From: Magnetospirillum sp. WYHS-4
GTDB taxonomy: Bacteria > Pseudomonadota > Alphaproteobacteria > Rhodospirillales > GLO-3
DNA length: 47,600 bases
Assembly (NCBI GenBank): GCA_039908345.1
Contig: JAMOBD010000016.1
Span: 1-47,600, forward strand
Reading direction: 5' to 3'
A program made the translations under genes and the position numbers. Of the stretch, positions 39,048-47,600 are shown in pieces. The notes under the pieces are model-generated. The model had not been told where the DNA came from. It made no database searches and saw only the letters and a list, made by a program, of their open reading frames with translations. Each line of letters opens with the position of its first letter. Position 1 is the stretch's first letter.

Positions 39048-40396
<1,349 letters not shown>

Positions 40397-40400
<4 letters not shown>

Positions 40401-41848
40401 GGCGCGGCCTCCCCGGGAACCGGCAGCCAGACATGGAAGGCCGCGCCGCCTCCGGGCGGGCTGTCGACGGCGATGCAGCCTTCGTGCTCTTCCACGATCT
40501 CGTGGGCGATGTAGAGCCCGAGCCCCGAGCCCTTGCCCACCGGCTTGGTGGTGAAGAAGGGATCGAAGATGCGCGCCAAGACCTCGGACGGGATGCCGGG
40601 ACCGTCGTCGGCCACGGCGATTTCCACCATGGCCCGTCCGGCCGCGCAGGCGACCTGCGGCGCGGCATGGCGGCGGGCGCTCACGACGATGCGACCGCTC
40701 TCGCCCAGGGCCTGGATGGCGTTCTTCACCAGGTTCAGCAACAGGTGCTGGAGTTGCTGGCGGTCGGCCGTCACCTCGAGGTCGGAAGGAATGTCGAACT
40801 CGACGGCGATCCGCGCCGGGAGTTCGCCCTTGAGGAAGCGCACCGCTTCTTCCGCCAATGGGGCCAGCGCCTGGGTCTCCTTCGACGTCTCGCGCTTGCG
40901 GGCGAAATCGAGTAGCGAACGGACGATGCCGCGGGCCCTCAAGGTCTGGTCGTCGATCTGGGCCAGCAGGGCCTGGAGGGTCCGAGGATCTGCCGCTTCC
41001 CCTTCCTCCAGCAGAATCTGGCAGGATGAGGAGATGTTTGACAAAGGGTTGTTCAGTTCGTGGGCCACGCCCGAAAGCAGGGTGCCCAGCGCCGCCAGCT
41101 TTTCCGTATGGGCCAGATGGCGCTGGCGGCGTTCCATCTCTTCCAGCATGCGGTTGAAGGCGCGGGTCAGCGAGACGATCTCGCGATCCTGACCTGGCAG
41201 ATCGATGCGGGCCAACTGGCCCCGCGCCACCGCGGTGGTGCTTTCCTCCACTTGGCCCAGGGCGCGAGCGACACGGCCGGCGACCAGACGGCCGACCAGC
41301 ACGGCCAGCAGAGTGATGACGACGATGGCGACGATCAGCACCTCGCGCTGGCGCTCCACCGAAGCGCCCAGCAGGCGGCGTTCCGCCGCCGCCAGTCCCT
41401 CGGCGATCGAGGCCACTTCCTTGCCCGCTTGGCGCAGGGGCGCCTGCTGGGCCGCCGCCCGCACGAAATCGCCGGCGCCATAGAGACGGGCGTAGCCCTC
41501 GAACAGGTCGGCATAGACCGCCAGCCCTTCTTGCAGCCGCCCGAGGCCAGCGTGGCCGGCCAGCGGCTCGAAGGCCTCGGGATGGTTGGCAAGCAGATGC
41601 TGGGCGGCCGAAACGTTCTCCAGGGTTTCCAGGTGGTCGGCACGCTCGTGGTAGAGCAGGTAATTCTTCTCGAAGCGGCGGATCTGCAATACGGCGTCGA
41701 ACAGTTCGGAAACCTTTTGTCCCTGCTGGATCTTCCGTTCGATCAGCACCGAATCGGCGGACGCCACCGCCGCCAGCCCGACGATCAGGCTGCCGATGGC
41801 ATAGAACGCGAACACGATCTTCTGGCGCAGGGAGCCAAGGAGCACCAC
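40397..41848 (-). CDS. membrane sensor histidine kinase, partner of the sigma-54 regulator
   Basis: The 483-residue protein has an N-terminal membrane helix (FAFYAIGSLIVGLAAVASA), a periplasmic helical sensor region, a second helix (EVLIVAIVVITLLAVLVGRLVAG) and a HAMP linker. The HisKA H-box is GVAHELNNPLSNI (His about residue 263), and the HATPase domain has VKNAIQAL, DDGPGIP and GSGLGLYIAHEI. This NtrB/ZraS-like type pairs with NtrC-family regulators. Start GTG at 41848 with GGGAGG before. It shares ATGA with the regulator. The signal is unknown; the membrane sensor suggests an envelope, periplasmic or small-molecule cue. Confidence 0.94.
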
Positions 41849-41899: not shown

Positions 41900-41929
41900 A
41901 TCCTAGCAGGCAGCCGTTGCACAGTGCAA
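41900..41929 (-). promoter_or_regulatory. candidate promoter of the two-component operon
   Basis: On the minus strand TTGCAC (41924-41929) and TAGGAT (41900-41905) are 18 bases apart. The -35 hexamer lies inside the TTGC-N5-GCAA palindrome, so a regulator bound there would block this promoter. Weak candidate. Confidence 0.3.
41917..41929. promoter_or_regulatory. TTGC-N5-GCAA palindrome, upstream copy
   Basis: TTGCACAGTGCAA is a perfect 13-base palindrome. It is one of two TTGC-N5-GCAA motifs in the 344-base region between the two-component system and the SulP/Dab genes. Its centre is about 240 bases upstream of the predicted sigma-54 start, a normal enhancer distance. Confidence 0.6.
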
Positions 41930-41953
41930 TTGACTAGAGGGACACCGTTGCAA

Positions 41954-41969
41954 GGCGGAAATTTCCGCC
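41954..41969. repeat. 16-bp perfect palindrome in the control region
   Basis: GGCGGAAATTTCCGCC is a complete palindrome between the two TTGC-N5-GCAA motifs. It may bind a second dimeric regulator. It has no loop or U-run, so it is not a terminator. Confidence 0.65.
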
Positions 41970-42031
41970 GATCCCATTGTCATTCCGCGCCATATCACGC
42001 CGGAGGCTCCCTGCGGTCCGTGCCGAGCTGG

Positions 42032-42044
42032 TTGCCTTATGCAA
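42032..42044. promoter_or_regulatory. TTGC-N5-GCAA palindrome, downstream copy
   Basis: TTGCCTTATGCAA repeats the TTGC-N5-GCAA pattern (GTTGC and GCAAC arms). Its centre is 115 bases (about eleven helical turns) from the upstream copy and about 125 bases upstream of the predicted sigma-54 start. Confidence 0.6.
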
Positions 42045-42135
42045 CATCTTTTAGCTCCGCTCTATCGAATTGCCGAACGACAGTCGAACAAAATAATACG
42101 TAGATTCAACAGGTTGTTCCCGTGCCACGCCGTTC

Positions 42136-42151
42136 TGGCATGGGCCATGCA
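42136..42151 (+). promoter_or_regulatory. sigma-54 (-24/-12) promoter of the SulP/Dab operon
   Basis: TGGCATGGGCCATGCA fits the TGGCACG-N4-TTGCA consensus with two changes and the invariant GG and GC correctly spaced. It would start transcription near 42162, ahead of the small ORF at 42193. Confidence 0.8.
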
Positions 42152-42192: not shown

Positions 42193-42339
42193 ATGCCCCG
42201 CCTGCCGACCCGCTTCGACGCCCTGATGATGGCCGTGACCTTCGCGGAGGCCGGCGAGCCGGGGACGGCCCTGGAATTTCTGAAGGAACCCGAGAACAAG
42301 CGGTCCGCTCCGCCGCCGCTGTCCCGGCCTGCCCGCTGA
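42193..42339 (+). CDS. small 48-residue ORF leading the SulP/Dab operon
   Basis: The ORF encodes MPRLPTRFDALMMAVTFAEA followed by GEPGTALEFLKEPENK and a Pro/Arg-rich tail. A GAGGAAAA ribosome binding site precedes the ATG, it is GC-rich at third codon positions, and it is the first ORF after the sigma-54 promoter. It begins about 31 bases after the predicted transcription start and ends 35 bases before sulP. It has one short amphipathic helix and no signal or membrane segment. It could be a regulatory small protein, a leader peptide coupling translation to sulP (which lacks a clear ribosome binding site), or a chance ORF. I do not recognise a family. Confidence 0.55.
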   Translation: MPRLPTRFDALMMAVTFAEAGEPGTALEFLKEPENKRSAPPPLSRPAR

Positions 42340-42374
42340 CCTTTCCTCTTCCCTCAGATCCCAGATTGGCGACC

Positions 42375-44120
42375 ATGAACAACATCAAGAAGTTCGTTCC
42401 CTTCCTCGGCTGGTTTCCGATGGGCGGCGCGGTCTTGCGCGCCGACCTGCTGGCCGGCGTCACCGTGGCCCTTGTCCTCATCCCCCAGTCCATGGCCTAT
42501 GCCCAGTTGGCCGGCCTGCCCGCCTATTACGGGCTCTACGCCGCCTTTCTGCCGGTGGCCATGGCCGCGTTGTTCGGCTCATCCAAGCAACTGGCGACGG
42601 GCCCGGTTGCCGTGGTCTCGCTGCTCACCGCTTCCGCCCTGATGCCCCATGCCCAGCCGGGCACCGCCGAATTCATCGGCTACGCCATCTTGATGTCGTT
42701 GCTGGTGGGCGCCGTGCAGTTGACCCTGGGCCTCTTGCGCCTGGGCGTGGTGGTCAACTTCCTGTCCCACCCGGTGATCGTCGGCTTCACCAATGCCGCC
42801 GCCATCATCATCGGCCTGTCGCAACTGTCCAAGATCTTCGGCGTCCCGATGGGCCGCAGCGAAAATTTCGCCCAGGACATCTGGGGCGTGCTGCAGCAGG
42901 TGGGCGCCACCCATTGGCCGACCTTCGCCTTCGGCATCGTCGCCTTCGCCATCATGTGGAGCCTGAAGAAATACCTGCCTCGCCTGCCCAACGTCCTGAT
43001 CGCCGTGGCGCTGACCACCGTCACCAGTTGGCTGATCGACTTCAAGGGCTTGGGCGGCGCCGTGGTCGGCGAAATCCCCCAAGGCCTGCCCAGCGTCGCC
43101 CTGCCCCGTCTCGACTTGGACATGATGGCCCAGCTTCTGCCCAGCGCGATCATCATCTCGCTGGTCGGCTTCATGGAAGCGATCTCCATCGCCAAGGCCA
43201 TGGCGGCCAAGACCCGGGACCGCATCGACCCCAACCAGGAACTGATCGGCCAGGGCCTCGCGAACTTGGTCGGCAGCCTGACCCAGGCCTATCCGGCCTC
43301 CGGCTCCTTCTCCCGGTCGGCGGTCAACCTGAACGCCGGCGCCAAGACCGGCATGTCGTCGGTCTTCACGGCGGCCATGGTGCTGGTGACGCTGCTGTTC
43401 CTGACGCCCTTGCTCTACAATCTCCCGCAGGCGGTGCTGGCGGCGGTGATCATGATGGCGGTGATCGGCCTGGTCAATTTCAAGGCCATTCGCCACGCTT
43501 GGCATGCCAACCGGCACGACGGTGCGGCCTCCGCGGTGACCTTCCTCGCCACCCTGGCCTTCGCGCCACACCTGGACAAGGGCATCATGGTCGGCGCCGG
43601 GCTGGCCATCGTGCTTTACCTCTACCGGACCATGCGCCCGCGCGTGGCGCAACTGGGCCGCTTCGAGGACGGAACGCTGCGCGACCTGGCGGTCTATCCC
43701 AACCTGCCCACCGACCCGCGCATCATCGTCATCCGCTTCGACGGCCAGCTCTATTTCGCCAACGTCTCCTACTTCGAGGACATGGTGCTGGCGGCGGTCG
43801 CCGCCCAGCCCGACGCCAAGTTCCTCCTGGTGGTGGGCGACGGCATCAACCAGTTGGACGCCTCCGGCGAGGAGGTGATCCATCACTTGGCCGAACGCCT
43901 TGAGGGCAACGGCATCGCCCTGGTCTTTTCCGGCCTAAAGCGGCAGGTGATCGAGGTGATGCACCATACCGGCCTGTTCGACCTGCTGGCCCAGGGGAAC
44001 ATCTTCCCCACCGAGGACATGGCCTTGGCCGCGATCTACGACCGCCTGGGCGGCGAGGCGACCTTCCGTCCCCTGATGCCCAAGCGGCCGGCCGATCCCG
44101 CTTTGGCGGCGGCTTCCTGA
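42375..44120 (+). CDS. SulP-family anion transporter with STAS domain
   Basis: The 581-residue inner-membrane protein has about eleven to twelve membrane helices in a SulP arrangement. ADLLAGVTVALVLIPQSMAYAQLAGLPAYYGLYAA is the family signature, and SGSFSRSAVNLNAGAKTGMSSV lies at the substrate site. A cytoplasmic STAS domain (about residues 440-565, IIVIRFDGQLYFANV and so on) follows. Family members carry sulfate, bicarbonate and other anions. Next to NuoM-like and DabA genes, bicarbonate is a strong candidate, while sulfate remains possible. The ATG at 42375 has no good ribosome binding site; an in-frame TTG at 42366 is an alternative. It is probably translated by coupling to the small ORF. 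Confidence 0.92.
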   Translation: MNNIKKFVPFLGWFPMGGAVLRADLLAGVTVALVLIPQSMAYAQLAGLPAYYGLYAAFLPVAMAALFGSSKQLATGPVAVVSLLTASALMPHAQPGTAEFIGYAILMSLLVGAVQLTLGLLRLGVVVNFLSHPVIVGFTNAAAIIIGLSQLSKIFGVPMGRSENFAQDIWGVLQQVGATHWPTFAFGIVAFAIMWSLKKYLPRLPNVLIAVALTTVTSWLIDFKGLGGAVVGEIPQGLPSVALPRLDLDMMAQLLPSAIIISLVGFMEAISIAKAMAAKTRDRIDPNQELIGQGLANLVGSLTQAYPASGSFSRSAVNLNAGAKTGMSSVFTAAMVLVTLLFLTPLLYNLPQAVLAAVIMMAVIGLVNFKAIRHAWHANRHDGAASAVTFLATLAFAPHLDKGIMVGAGLAIVLYLYRTMRPRVAQLGRFEDGTLRDLAVYPNLPTDPRIIVIRFDGQLYFANVSYFEDMVLAAVAAQPDAKFLLVVGDGINQLDASGEEVIHHLAERLEGNGIALVFSGLKRQVIEVMHHTGLFDLLAQGNIFPTEDMALAAIYDRLGGEATFRPLMPKRPADPALAAAS

Positions 44121-44133
44121 GGGTTTGGCTTGC

Positions 44134-44147
44134 GGGGACGCGTCCCC
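44134..44147. repeat. intercistronic GC hairpin between sulP and the NuoM-like gene
   Basis: GGGGACGCGTCCCC is a perfect palindrome (5-bp stem with a CGCG loop as RNA) in the 46-base gap. It lacks a U-run and might act as an RNA stability or processing element. Confidence 0.5.
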
Positions 44148-44166
44148 TCGGGATATTGCAGGACTC

Positions 44167-45633
44167 ATGCAGCCGCTGACATTGCTCCTTCTGATGCCGG
44201 TTCTGGGAGCGGCGATCATCGCCGTCCTGCCCCGCCGAGCGGTTCGGCCGATCCGCGGTATCGCCCTGGCGGCCTCGGGCGCCGCCCTGGCGTCTGCCTG
44301 GGAATTGCTGCTTGCCTTTGATCGGAAGGCGGCCGGCCTGCAGTTCTTCGAGAAGATCCCCTGGCATCCCCGGCTGGGCAGCTACTATGCCCTGGGGGTG
44401 GACGGTTTTTCGTTTCCCATGGTGCTGCTGGCCACTCTGCTCTGCTTCGTCGCGCTGCTGGCGTCCACGGGCATCCGCGAGAAGCTCAAGGGCTACTACC
44501 TGTCCATGCTGCTGCTGGAAGCCGCCATGCTGGGCGTCTTCATGGCTCAGGATTGGTCGCTGTTCTACGTGTTCTGGGAACTGACTCTGCTGCCGCTGTT
44601 CTTCCTCATCAACCGCTGGGGCGGCGAACGGCGCAACCACGCGGCGCTCAACTTCGTGCTCTATACCATGGGCGGATCGGTCTTCATGCTGATCGCCCTG
44701 CTGCTGGCCTTCGACGAGGCTGCCGCCCATAGCTTCGCCATGGCCGAGATGACGACCGGCCTGAAGGCCCTGCCGCGCGAGACCCAGGTGCTGATCTTCC
44801 TCGGGTTCCTGATCGGCTTCGGCGTCAAGATGCCCATCTTTCCGCTGCACGGCTGGCTGCCCCTCGCCCATGTGGAAGCCCCCAGCCCGGTCAGCATCCT
44901 GCTGTCCGGAGTGCTGCTCAAGATGGGCTCCTACGGCTTGATCCGGGCCGGAGCCATGCTGCCCGAAGCCCTGATCGCCTTGCAGGGAACCCTGATGACC
45001 CTGGCTTTCGCCAGCCTGCTCTACGGCGCCGTGCTGGCCTGGCGCCAGAGCGACTTGAAGGCGATGATCGCCTATTCCTCCATCAGCCACATGGGGGTGG
45101 TGCTGTTGGGCATCGCCACTCTCAACGAGGCCGGCATGACCGGCGCCGTGATGCAGATGGTGGCCCACGGCCTGGTGGCCGGCTCGCTGTTCCTTCTGAT
45201 CGGGCTTTTGTACCAGCGCACCCATACCCGCGAGATTGCCGACTACAGTTCCCTGGTGCGGGTGACGCCGCGCTTCGCGTTCTTCACCTCGCTGGCCTTC
45301 GTGGCCGCCGTCGGCATGCCGGGCACGGCAGGTTTCATCGCCGAGCTGCATGCGATCATCGGCAGTTTCCAGCGCTGGGGCTGGCTGGCGGCGCTGCTCA
45401 GCGCCGGCATGCTGATCAGCGCAGCCTATTCGGTGCGTACCGTCGGACGCCTGTTCACCGGCCCGGTGCGCGAGACCATGCGCGACGTTCCCGACCTGCA
45501 ACGCCTGGAACTGGCGGCGGCGAGCCTGCTGGCGGTGGCCGTGGTGGGGCTGGGCATCGCTCCGGCCCCGGCCCTGGACCTGATGGCGGCGACGGTGGGC
45601 AAGTTCAGCGCCGCCTTCGCGGGCCGGATCTAG
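44167..45633 (+). CDS. NuoM-like antiporter-type membrane subunit (DabB role)
   Basis: The 488-residue protein has about 13-14 membrane helices and the NuoM/ND4 proton-channel signatures. These are the conserved Glu in FYVFWELTLLPLFFLINRWGG, the Lys in GVKMPIFPLHGWLPLAHVEA, the Lys in LLKMGSYGLIRAG, and SDLKAMIAYSSISHMGVV. It is not part of a nuo operon here. The next gene encodes DabA, whose partner in known DAB complexes is an NDH-family membrane subunit that couples an ion gradient to carbon uptake. Known DabB proteins are usually described as ND5/NuoL-like, so a NuoM-like partner is notable. The ATG at 44167 has AGGA only three bases away; the frame is open upstream. Confidence 0.9.
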   Translation: MQPLTLLLLMPVLGAAIIAVLPRRAVRPIRGIALAASGAALASAWELLLAFDRKAAGLQFFEKIPWHPRLGSYYALGVDGFSFPMVLLATLLCFVALLASTGIREKLKGYYLSMLLLEAAMLGVFMAQDWSLFYVFWELTLLPLFFLINRWGGERRNHAALNFVLYTMGGSVFMLIALLLAFDEAAAHSFAMAEMTTGLKALPRETQVLIFLGFLIGFGVKMPIFPLHGWLPLAHVEAPSPVSILLSGVLLKMGSYGLIRAGAMLPEALIALQGTLMTLAFASLLYGAVLAWRQSDLKAMIAYSSISHMGVVLLGIATLNEAGMTGAVMQMVAHGLVAGSLFLLIGLLYQRTHTREIADYSSLVRVTPRFAFFTSLAFVAAVGMPGTAGFIAELHAIIGSFQRWGWLAALLSAGMLISAAYSVRTVGRLFTGPVRETMRDVPDLQRLELAAASLLAVAVVGLGIAPAPALDLMAATVGKFSAAFAGRI

Positions 45634-45642
45634 GGGGGGCCG

Positions 45643-47600
45643 ATGGATCGTTCTTCCCTGCACGACCGCCTGCGCCACGCCATCCACCACCTGGAGCACG
45701 TGCTGCCCGGCCAGGCCTCGATCCGCGACTTCGTCCATCACAACACCCTGCACGGCTTCCAGCACCTGCCCTTTTCGGAAGCCCTGGCCGAGGCCCACCG
45801 GGTCAACGGCATCTTCGGCTTCCTGCCGCAGGCGGAATACCGGGCCTTCTTCCGCCAGGGCCGCATCACCCGCGGCGGGCTGGAGGAGGTCCTGTCCGAG
45901 GACGCGGACCTGGAAGCCGGCCGGCCTGTCGGGCCGCTCCGCCGCCTCGACGTCTATCGGACGGCCCTGCTGCACGACTTCAAGCCCCTGACCGCCTGCC
46001 AGTTGGCCTGGCAGATGGACGAGATGGGAGCGCTGGAGACCTGGCAGCCCGATCTGCCCGAGGACTTGCGCCGCGGCGGCCCAAAAGCCGTCGCCGCCCT
46101 TTGGGAGGCCTGCCTGGCGGCGCTGGGGCTGGAGCACGAACCTTCCCATGCCGAGGACCTGGTCGACTTGGCGCCCGAACGGGCGGAACGGCTGCTGGCC
46201 GGGCTGTCCTCGATCGAGGTCGAGGCGGAGCAGTTGCGCACCCACCACCTGATCCGCCACGAGGCCGACCGCCTGCTCGCCGCCCTGGAAGGCAAGGTGG
46301 GACGCGAGATCACCTTGCGCGGCCTGCTGTTCCGGCTCACCGGCCGCGACATCCTGGACGAGATGCGCCCCTACCTGCTGCGCCATCTGGCCTCGTTCCT
46401 CGACGAGGGGCTGGCGGCCTGGAACCTGCCCGGCCGCGACCGGGGCTTCTACGCCGCCTGGCGGCACAACGCCCGCACCGATGCCGGCCCGCGCCTGGAA
46501 GACTTCCCCGACTGGAAGGAAGCGGTCGACGACCTGCCCGACGAGCCGCTCGCCGCCATCTTGGAGGAACTCACCCTCCTGGGCCTGCCCGAGGACCGTT
46601 GGGACGCCTACCTGGAGCGCCTGGCCCTGGAACTGCCGGGATGGTCGGGCATGATGATGTGGCGGAGCCTTCGGCCCGGCTATCGCAAGCTGGCGCCCGA
46701 GCGGGTGGAGATGATGGACTACCTGGCGGTGCGCCTGGTCCTGGAACGCTTCTTCGCCCAGCGCCTCTGCCGCGCCGAATTCCGGGTCGAGCCGCGGCTC
46801 GACATGTTCCGCTGGCATTTCCGGCGGCGGCGGCCGGAACTGCTGGTCCGCTGGAGCCTGTTCAACGGCCGCCTGCCCGAATATCTGGCCAGTCAGGCCC
46901 AAGGCCTGCTTCGCCGTTCGCGCGAGGACCCGGCCGACGACGAGGACTGGCAGGGCCTGGCCCATCGCATCTGGACCTGGCGGCTGTCGCCGGCAGCCGA
47001 GAAATCCGTCGGCCACGGCGTATCTGGCAGCGGCTGGCGGCTGTTCCGCCTGACCCAGCACCTGGGCTTGTCCGCCGCCGACGTGGCGGCCGGCGGCCGG
47101 GACCTGGCGGAGGAATTGCTGGCCTGCCTGGACCGCCTGACGCCGGAACGGGCCGGGCACCTGTGGCTTCTGGCCTACGAGCGTCACTACCGCGACCATG
47201 TGCTGGGCGCCCTGGCCGCCAACCGCGGCCGGGGTCGCTGGGCGCGGCGCGACGAGCGGCCGGCCGCCCAAGCGGTCTTCTGCATGGACGACCGGGAGGA
47301 GGGCATCCGCCGCCACCTGGAGGAACGTAATCCGGACGTGGAAACCCTGGGCGCCGCCGGCTTCTTCGGCGTGCCCATCAACTGGCGGGGACTGGACGAC
47401 GAGGAAGTTTCCGCGCTCTGCCCGGTGGTGGTCACGCCCTCCCACGAGATCCGCGAGGAACCCCGGACGGGACAGGACGCCTTGCACGATGCCCATGCCA
47501 AGCGCCGGGCCCGGCGCCTGCGTTTGGGCGACCTGGTGTTCCGGGGCAGCCATCGCGGGCTGCTGAGCCCGGCCCTGGTGGCGGCGGCGGCGGCGCCGGG
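45643..47600 (+). CDS. dabA: DabA-like inorganic-carbon uptake subunit (DUF2309), 3' end outside window
   Basis: The frame from 45643 has no stop to the right edge (652 codons shown). DUF2309 signatures are present: IRDFVHHNTLHGFQHLPF near residue 27, VFCMDDREEGIRRHLEE with the C-X-D-X-R arrangement (C547, D549, R551) of the beta-carbonic-anhydrase-like zinc site, and LGAAGFFGVPINWRGLDD then LCPVVVTPSHE. In known DAB systems DabA is a cytoplasmic zinc subunit that converts CO2 to bicarbonate, coupled to DabB. The remaining zinc-binding His and Cys should lie beyond the window. It starts 9 bases after the NuoM-like gene with a GGGGGGG run before its ATG. Confidence 0.9.
   Translation, partial: MDRSSLHDRLRHAIHHLEHVLPGQASIRDFVHHNTLHGFQHLPFSEALAEAHRVNGIFGFLPQAEYRAFFRQGRITRGGLEEVLSEDADLEAGRPVGPLRRLDVYRTALLHDFKPLTACQLAWQMDEMGALETWQPDLPEDLRRGGPKAVAALWEACLAALGLEHEPSHAEDLVDLAPERAERLLAGLSSIEVEAEQLRTHHLIRHEADRLLAALEGKVGREITLRGLLFRLTGRDILDEMRPYLLRHLASFLDEGLAAWNLPGRDRGFYAAWRHNARTDAGPRLEDFPDWKEAVDDLPDEPLAAILEELTLLGLPEDRWDAYLERLALELPGWSGMMMWRSLRPGYRKLAPERVEMMDYLAVRLVLERFFAQRLCRAEFRVEPRLDMFRWHFRRRRPELLVRWSLFNGRLPEYLASQAQGLLRRSREDPADDEDWQGLAHRIWTWRLSPAAEKSVGHGVSGSGWRLFRLTQHLGLSAADVAAGGRDLAEELLACLDRLTPERAGHLWLLAYERHYRDHVLGALAANRGRGRWARRDERPAAQAVFCMDDREEGIRRHLEERNPDVETLGAAGFFGVPINWRGLDDEEVSALCPVVVTPSHEIREEPRTGQDALHDAHAKRRARRLRLGDLVFRGSHRGLLSPALVAAAAAP

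Follow-up and report, generated by a model that had tools for sequence, protein, structure and literature searches.

Two palindromes lie between two divergently transcribed operons in the 47.6-kb stretch of Magnetospirillum sp. WYHS-4 DNA analysed here (the window), and they very probably bind dimers of the NtrC-type regulator encoded beside them. Once phosphorylated, this regulator would activate a sigma-54 operon and down-regulate its own. The sites and promoter elements, their positions and their conservation were read directly from the DNA, and from these we infer regulator binding, activation and autorepression.

The intergenic region is bordered on one side by the minus-strand kinase-regulator operon and on the other by a plus-strand operon, sORF-SulP-DabB-DabA (42193-47598). 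Site 1, TTGCACAGTGCAA (41917-41929), is the predicted upstream enhancer site and overlies the presumed -35 from which the divergent kinase gene would be transcribed; site 2, TTGCCTTATGCAA (42032-42044), is the predicted promoter-proximal enhancer site. A first-pass annotation had described two TTGC-N5-GCAA palindromes 115 bp apart, and the sequence check found both to be exact and at this spacing. It had put them about 240 and 125 bases before the predicted start; recomputed from the centres (41923 and 42038) the positions are -239 and -124 relative to the predicted +1. Between both palindromes a half-site, TTGCAA, is present at 41948-41953. The -24/-12 promoter that had been claimed downstream of them was also found, as a good plus-strand sigma-54 element, TGGCATGGGCCATGCA (TGGCATG-GGCC-ATGCA), at 42136-42151. 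With the -12 placed at 42150, the +1 would be at about 42162. On a simple consensus scale the element scored 17.8 of 20.2, a value reached by 0.2% of 350-bp coding control stretches. The assembly also encodes rpoN (PF04552, 1.1e-67).

The response regulator (39048-40400, minus strand) is composed of a receiver, a sigma-54 AAA+ domain and a Fis-type HTH (PF00072, PF00158 and PF02954). It contains DVVLTDLRM at 50 with the phospho-acceptor Asp, the Walker A motif GESGTGKE at 173 and GAFTGA at 220. The receiver Asp, the GAFTGA and the Fis-type HTH are those of the NtrC family, and the palindromes, centred at -239 and -124, precede the -24/-12 by a distance within the family's range of about 80-250 bp. 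The regulator remains well short of the curated NCBIfam cut-offs, scoring 452 of 714 bits for AtoC, 400 of 760 for ZraR and 389 of 559 for NtrC. The recognition helix, GIDRVSLWRK, is nearly invariant in orthologs, and in the regulator tree the window falls among Pseudomonadota. The sensor histidine kinase (40397-41848, minus strand) comprises HAMP, HisKA and HATPase domains and a predicted periplasmic sensor. Its AlphaFold model (pLDDT 85) has helices at 7-66, 69-88, 90-124 and 128-208, and the sensor domain is predicted to be a four-helix bundle. Foldseek searches with the model gave the common kinase core as best matches. The first sensor helix carries an invariant RR-x-EKN; within it, residues 54-66 include a nearly invariant RRFEKNY, a candidate anion-binding surface.

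We propose that the four-helix periplasmic sensor of the divergently encoded kinase would detect a signal, leading to autophosphorylation and to phosphoryl transfer to the Asp of the regulator. The regulator would then oligomerise on site 1, the half-site and site 2 and, through a loop in the DNA, activate the sigma-54 polymerase at 42136-42151, so that sORF-sulP-dabB-dabA could be transcribed. Occupancy of site 1 would at the same time limit expression of the kinase-regulator operon.

The first gene after the sigma-54 promoter is a small ORF of 48 aa (MPRLPTRFDALMMAVTFAEAGEPGTALEFLKEPENKRS..., 42193-42339), preceded by the SD sequence AGAGGA. Homologues were found by tblastn (down to 1e-8) in Nitrospirota and deltaproteobacterial loci, several of them directly behind the same enhancer pair. 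No Pfam family was found for the small ORF or for the USP-like protein of related loci, and no NCBIfam family for the small ORF. The members of this family, in the window and in seven ortholog loci (L018, L022, L027, L028, L033, L037 and L068), have 45-60 aa and share F-x-x-LM-x-A-V-T-FAEAGE-x-x-TA-x-E; their gene often comes first behind the enhancer pair, and they are also found fused to the N-terminus of the USP-like protein. In the window the small ORF is followed by a SulP-family transporter with a STAS domain (42366-44120, alternative ATG at 42375; PF00916 1.7e-112, PF01740, NCBIfam sulP), a DabB-like NuoM-type antiporter subunit (44125-45633; PF00361 3e-68) and the inorganic-carbon transporter subunit DabA (45643-47598; PF10070 5e-99), which is cut by the contig end. 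The adjoining dabA and dabB (PF10070 and PF00361) are those of a DAB operon, and the whole operon is predicted from its gene content to serve inorganic-carbon uptake.

SulP-DabB-DabA was found as a sigma-54 operon in the window and in several orthologs. In two further loci (L128 and L136) SulP is followed by a complex-I/hydrogenase-4-like (Hyf-like) membrane module, and no DabA match to the window protein was found there. The operon of Nitrospirota and Thiobacillus runs from a small ORF or USP-like protein to TauE/SafE and then to UspA or a gamma-carbonic-anhydrase-like protein and another SulP. In deltaproteobacteria the same pair of sites, with a typical spacing of 87 bp, precedes a -24/-12-like element and an sORF/USP-like/TauE/UspA operon, away from the kinase-regulator genes.

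As to the signal, our guess is that a shortage of inorganic carbon, or some related anion cue, is the most likely one. Carbon limitation is favoured because dabA-dabB are present together with RuBisCO in the genome of the window. Some orthologs control TauE/SafE or occur in sulfate reducers, so carbon may not be what the loci have in common. A competing reading is a sulfur-oxyanion (sulfate or sulfite) switch, of which SulP and TauE would be the targets while DabA-DabB ride along; it competes only with the guessed signal and not with the reading of the binding sites. It is possible because TauE orthologs and sulfate-reducer hosts exist: TauE/SafE is among the ortholog targets in Nitrospirota, Thiobacillus and sulfate reducers, and the SulP family includes sulfate permeases (PMC5840216, PMC10880623). 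We nevertheless consider it unlikely, as the operon of the window contains dabA-dabB in a RuBisCO-bearing genome, several orthologs also have SulP-DabB-DabA, and a gamma-carbonic-anhydrase-like hexapeptide protein comes next after one Thiobacillus TauE operon.

The weight of the sites depends on how the motif is defined. The loose pattern TTGC-N5-GCAA was observed three times in the window against 0.62 expected. Genome-wide it showed no excess (28 matches versus 27 for the reversed control), and it was dropped as a genome-wide signal, being too loose to be significant alone. The refined motif, (G/A)TTGCA-N3-TGCAA(C/T), written as TTGCANNNTGCAA, had a single exact match in the 3.65-Mb assembly, namely site 1. 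When up to one mismatch was permitted 21 sites were found in the assembly; site 2, departing from the consensus at one position, is among them and 19 lie outside this region. The first-pass annotation had suggested looking for the motif at further sigma-54 promoters within this genome, and this search was unsuccessful: nearly all of the 19 sites are inside long open frames and none is beside a convincing -24/-12. We concluded that the regulator seems to act locally, on a single target region.

A scoring matrix was trained on 79 sites upstream of orthologous kinases, with the window sequence excluded. Over the 47.6-kb window it ranked site 2 first (19.2 bits) and site 1 second (17.4), the next best match reaching 4.2; the training sites were chosen by the consensus pattern, so that the matrix is not fully independent of the first inspection and the control counts given below are the safer statistic. 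Of 20,000 dinucleotide-shuffled versions of the intergenic region, 20 contained one site of at least 17 bits and none contained two.

For comparison 80 loci encoding relatives of the regulator (50-68% identity) were used, 65 of them with a kinase homologue. Of these 65 loci, 54 carry a site with no more than one mismatch in the 250 bp preceding the kinase, in most cases ahead of a sigma-54 promoter. The motif matched 79 times in the 16.2 kb that precede the 65 kinases, versus 15 times in 194.6 kb of coding control. The composite pattern of enhancer and -24/-12 gave 22 matches in 40 ortholog genomes versus 0 for the reversed control. Presence at orthologous loci had been the other check suggested for the motif, and it is found at most of them, where it overlies the kinase promoter and precedes a -24/-12. 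Within the same order a strong homologue of the regulator was detected in one of 39 other genomes, with TTGCGATAGGCAA just upstream of its kinase.

Two layouts were seen in the orthologs, and in them the spacing of enhancer and promoter is tightly conserved. In the first, a single palindrome is located about 78 bp (77-79, in some 90-91) before the -24; in the second, a pair mostly 87-89 bp apart (also 76, 85-86 or 96) has its second member 79-104 bp before the -24. The second site was seen in 25 loci. The window spacing of 115 falls outside those of the paired layout, and together with the distance of 104 from site 2 to the promoter it exceeds nearly all kinase-linked orthologs. In eight loci (L030, L032, L034, L053, L056, L059, L070 and L078) the regulator and SulP genes diverge, two palindromes are separated by about 119-123 bp, and no homologue of the window kinase was found in the flanks covered. 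Helical phasing as a conserved constraint was rejected, the spacings being 76, 85-89, 96, 115 and about 119-123. Of the eleven helical turns that had been proposed, the 115 bp is thus true for the window but is not conserved, 87-89 bp being the ortholog norm. A similar outcome was obtained for the half-site, which had been given as 41945-41952. TTGCAA does exist, at 41948-41953, but its offset of 32 from site 1 is 3 bp off the ortholog register: a TGCAA half-site occurs at offset 28-29 in 19 of 51 ortholog loci, every other offset being seen at most once. With the ortholog matrix it was ranked seventh in the window (-0.7 bits).

The palindromes could instead bind a different, unlinked global repressor or activator, with the neighbouring regulator acting elsewhere, and TTGCA-N3-TGCAA is indeed a simple palindrome of a type usable by many factors. 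We regard this as improbable. The sites track the regulator across Pseudomonadota, Nitrospirota and deltaproteobacteria: they are retained at loci that have the regulator and no kinase homologue, and they accompany the target operon to places where it is unlinked from the kinase-regulator genes. They also lie at enhancer distance from a -24/-12 and beside a sigma-54 activator, and the near absence of other such sites from the own genome argues against a global factor. Conservation in orthologs, position and movement with the target operon support the initial proposal that these are enhancer sites of the adjacent NtrC-type regulator, as far as sequence comparison can indicate.

Site 1 may have a second function. 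On the kinase strand it supplies a TTGCAN -35-like hexamer, and a putative sigma-70 promoter of the kinase-regulator operon can be drawn at 41900-41929 on the minus strand, with TTGCAC (41929-41924), N18 and TAGGAT (41905-41900). This promoter is weak in the window, its -10 matching at four of six positions, and a generic promoter scan of the window did not detect it. The overlap of site 1 with a divergent -35, which the first-pass annotation had noted, is thus plausible in the window and much clearer in the orthologs. There a -10-like hexamer (at least 4/6) follows the site-1 -35 by 15-19 bp in 69% of loci versus 8% in shuffles. The best kinase promoters read TTGCAA-N17-TATAAT (L031) and TTGCAA-N18-TACAAT (L027 and L028), and in the best orthologs the kinase start codon is 5-8 bases past the -10, which implies a leaderless mRNA. 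Unlike in these orthologs the window kinase is not leaderless, having a leader with GGGAGG before the GTG at 41848. Since site 1 covers its -35 region, the kinase-regulator operon would be down-regulated on occupancy, and autoregulation through this site is probable.

The location of site 1 on the kinase -35 in orthologs would also fit a reading by which the sites only autoregulate the kinase-regulator operon and the -24/-12 is a chance match. This is very improbable: site 2 lies well away from the kinase promoter and keeps a conserved distance to the -24/-12, dozens of ortholog loci have the -24/-12 at fixed positions, the composite pattern had no control matches, and unlinked copies precede target operons without a kinase nearby. 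That site 2 belongs to an intrinsic terminator, or that the palindromes are due to chance, is hardly credible and the terminator reading was rejected, for although GTTGCCTTATGCAAC with ATCTTTTAGC behind it was flagged as terminator-like by a generic scan, such matches were no more frequent than in shuffles (1 versus a mean of 0.6, sd 0.8), the orthologous sites retain the sequence and not the T-run, and both sites outscore all else in the window, with no shuffle giving two.

In many betaproteobacteria a second SulP gene is located after the regulator gene, and a palindrome starts two bases past its -10, as TAAAATG[TTGC-N5-GCAA]. This -10-proximal palindrome was observed in most of L055, L021, L008, L013, L041, L039 and others. 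A site immediately behind the -10 is a classical operator position. Because of this location the regulator probably represses the second SulP gene, so that in these betaproteobacteria it would activate one SulP operon and repress another. No palindrome was found at the one other SulP in the genome of the window (C4, 36% identity), nor at a weak second match to the small ORF (C42). A related site, TTGCAAATTGAAAGATTGC, was observed with a -24/-12 before a conserved operon in four loci of Thiobacillus/Gallionella-type genomes (L113, L118, L126 and L127); this operon encodes a small secreted Cys protein, a protein of about 160 aa and a porin-like protein.

The mechanism belongs to textbook NtrC-type control, and the arrangement in the window is an ordinary NtrC-style one. 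In NtrC/NtrB-type (glnA-type) control palindromes lie 100-250 bp upstream of a -24/-12, and autoregulation proceeds via a site on the regulator's own promoter. The system of the window resembles NtrC/NtrB-type systems, with AtoS/AtoC and ZraS/ZraR as sequence neighbours, in its kinase and its receiver-AAA+-Fis regulator. It differs from them in the palindrome (TTGCA-N3-TGCAA), the sensor and the inorganic-carbon/anion transport targets. CbbR is a LysR-type regulator and not a sigma-54 activator. What its control of CO2 fixation and uptake genes has in common with the present system is the regulation of inorganic-carbon assimilation in autotrophs, and CbbR has been discussed for the cbb operons of A. 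ferrooxidans (PMC6458275). With the DAB/DAC (MpsAB) inorganic-carbon accumulation systems the shared part is dabB-dabA, here in the target operon. TspS/TspR of Acidithiobacillus caldus is likewise a sigma-54 two-component system of a chemolithoautotroph that adjoins its target operon; its site is TGTCCCAAATGGGACA and its target sox (sox-II) (PMC6335251). The window sites do not correspond to this UAS, the published site differing from TTGCA-N3-TGCAA. In the open-access literature, to which our search was confined, we found neither sigma-54 two-component control of SulP/Dab operons nor a published description of the motif in a bacterial context.

We tentatively put forward, as a real possibility, that the loci together form a two-component regulon that spans phyla and has so far gone undescribed, its NtrC-type protein using one palindrome in what would be three roles. 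It would activate a sigma-54 inorganic-carbon-concentration operon (sORF/USP-like, SulP, Dab or complex-I-like modules, or TauE), repress its own leaderless promoter via the -35, and in many betaproteobacteria repress a second SulP via an operator behind the -10. If true, the three-role regulator would be a switch between two anion transporters, and an uncharacterised protein of about 48 aa would be a recurrent first gene. The induction of bicarbonate/CO2 uptake in chemolithoautotrophs is poorly known, and the picture given by the open-access papers is centred on CbbR and carboxysome-linked loci. With its defined operator sequence, its regulator pair and the predicted RpoN dependence of sulP-dabBA, such a carbon-uptake switch lends itself to direct testing. 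Betaproteobacteria, Nitrospirota and deltaproteobacteria share this operator code, and it is the regulon, rather than the window, that is the interesting part.
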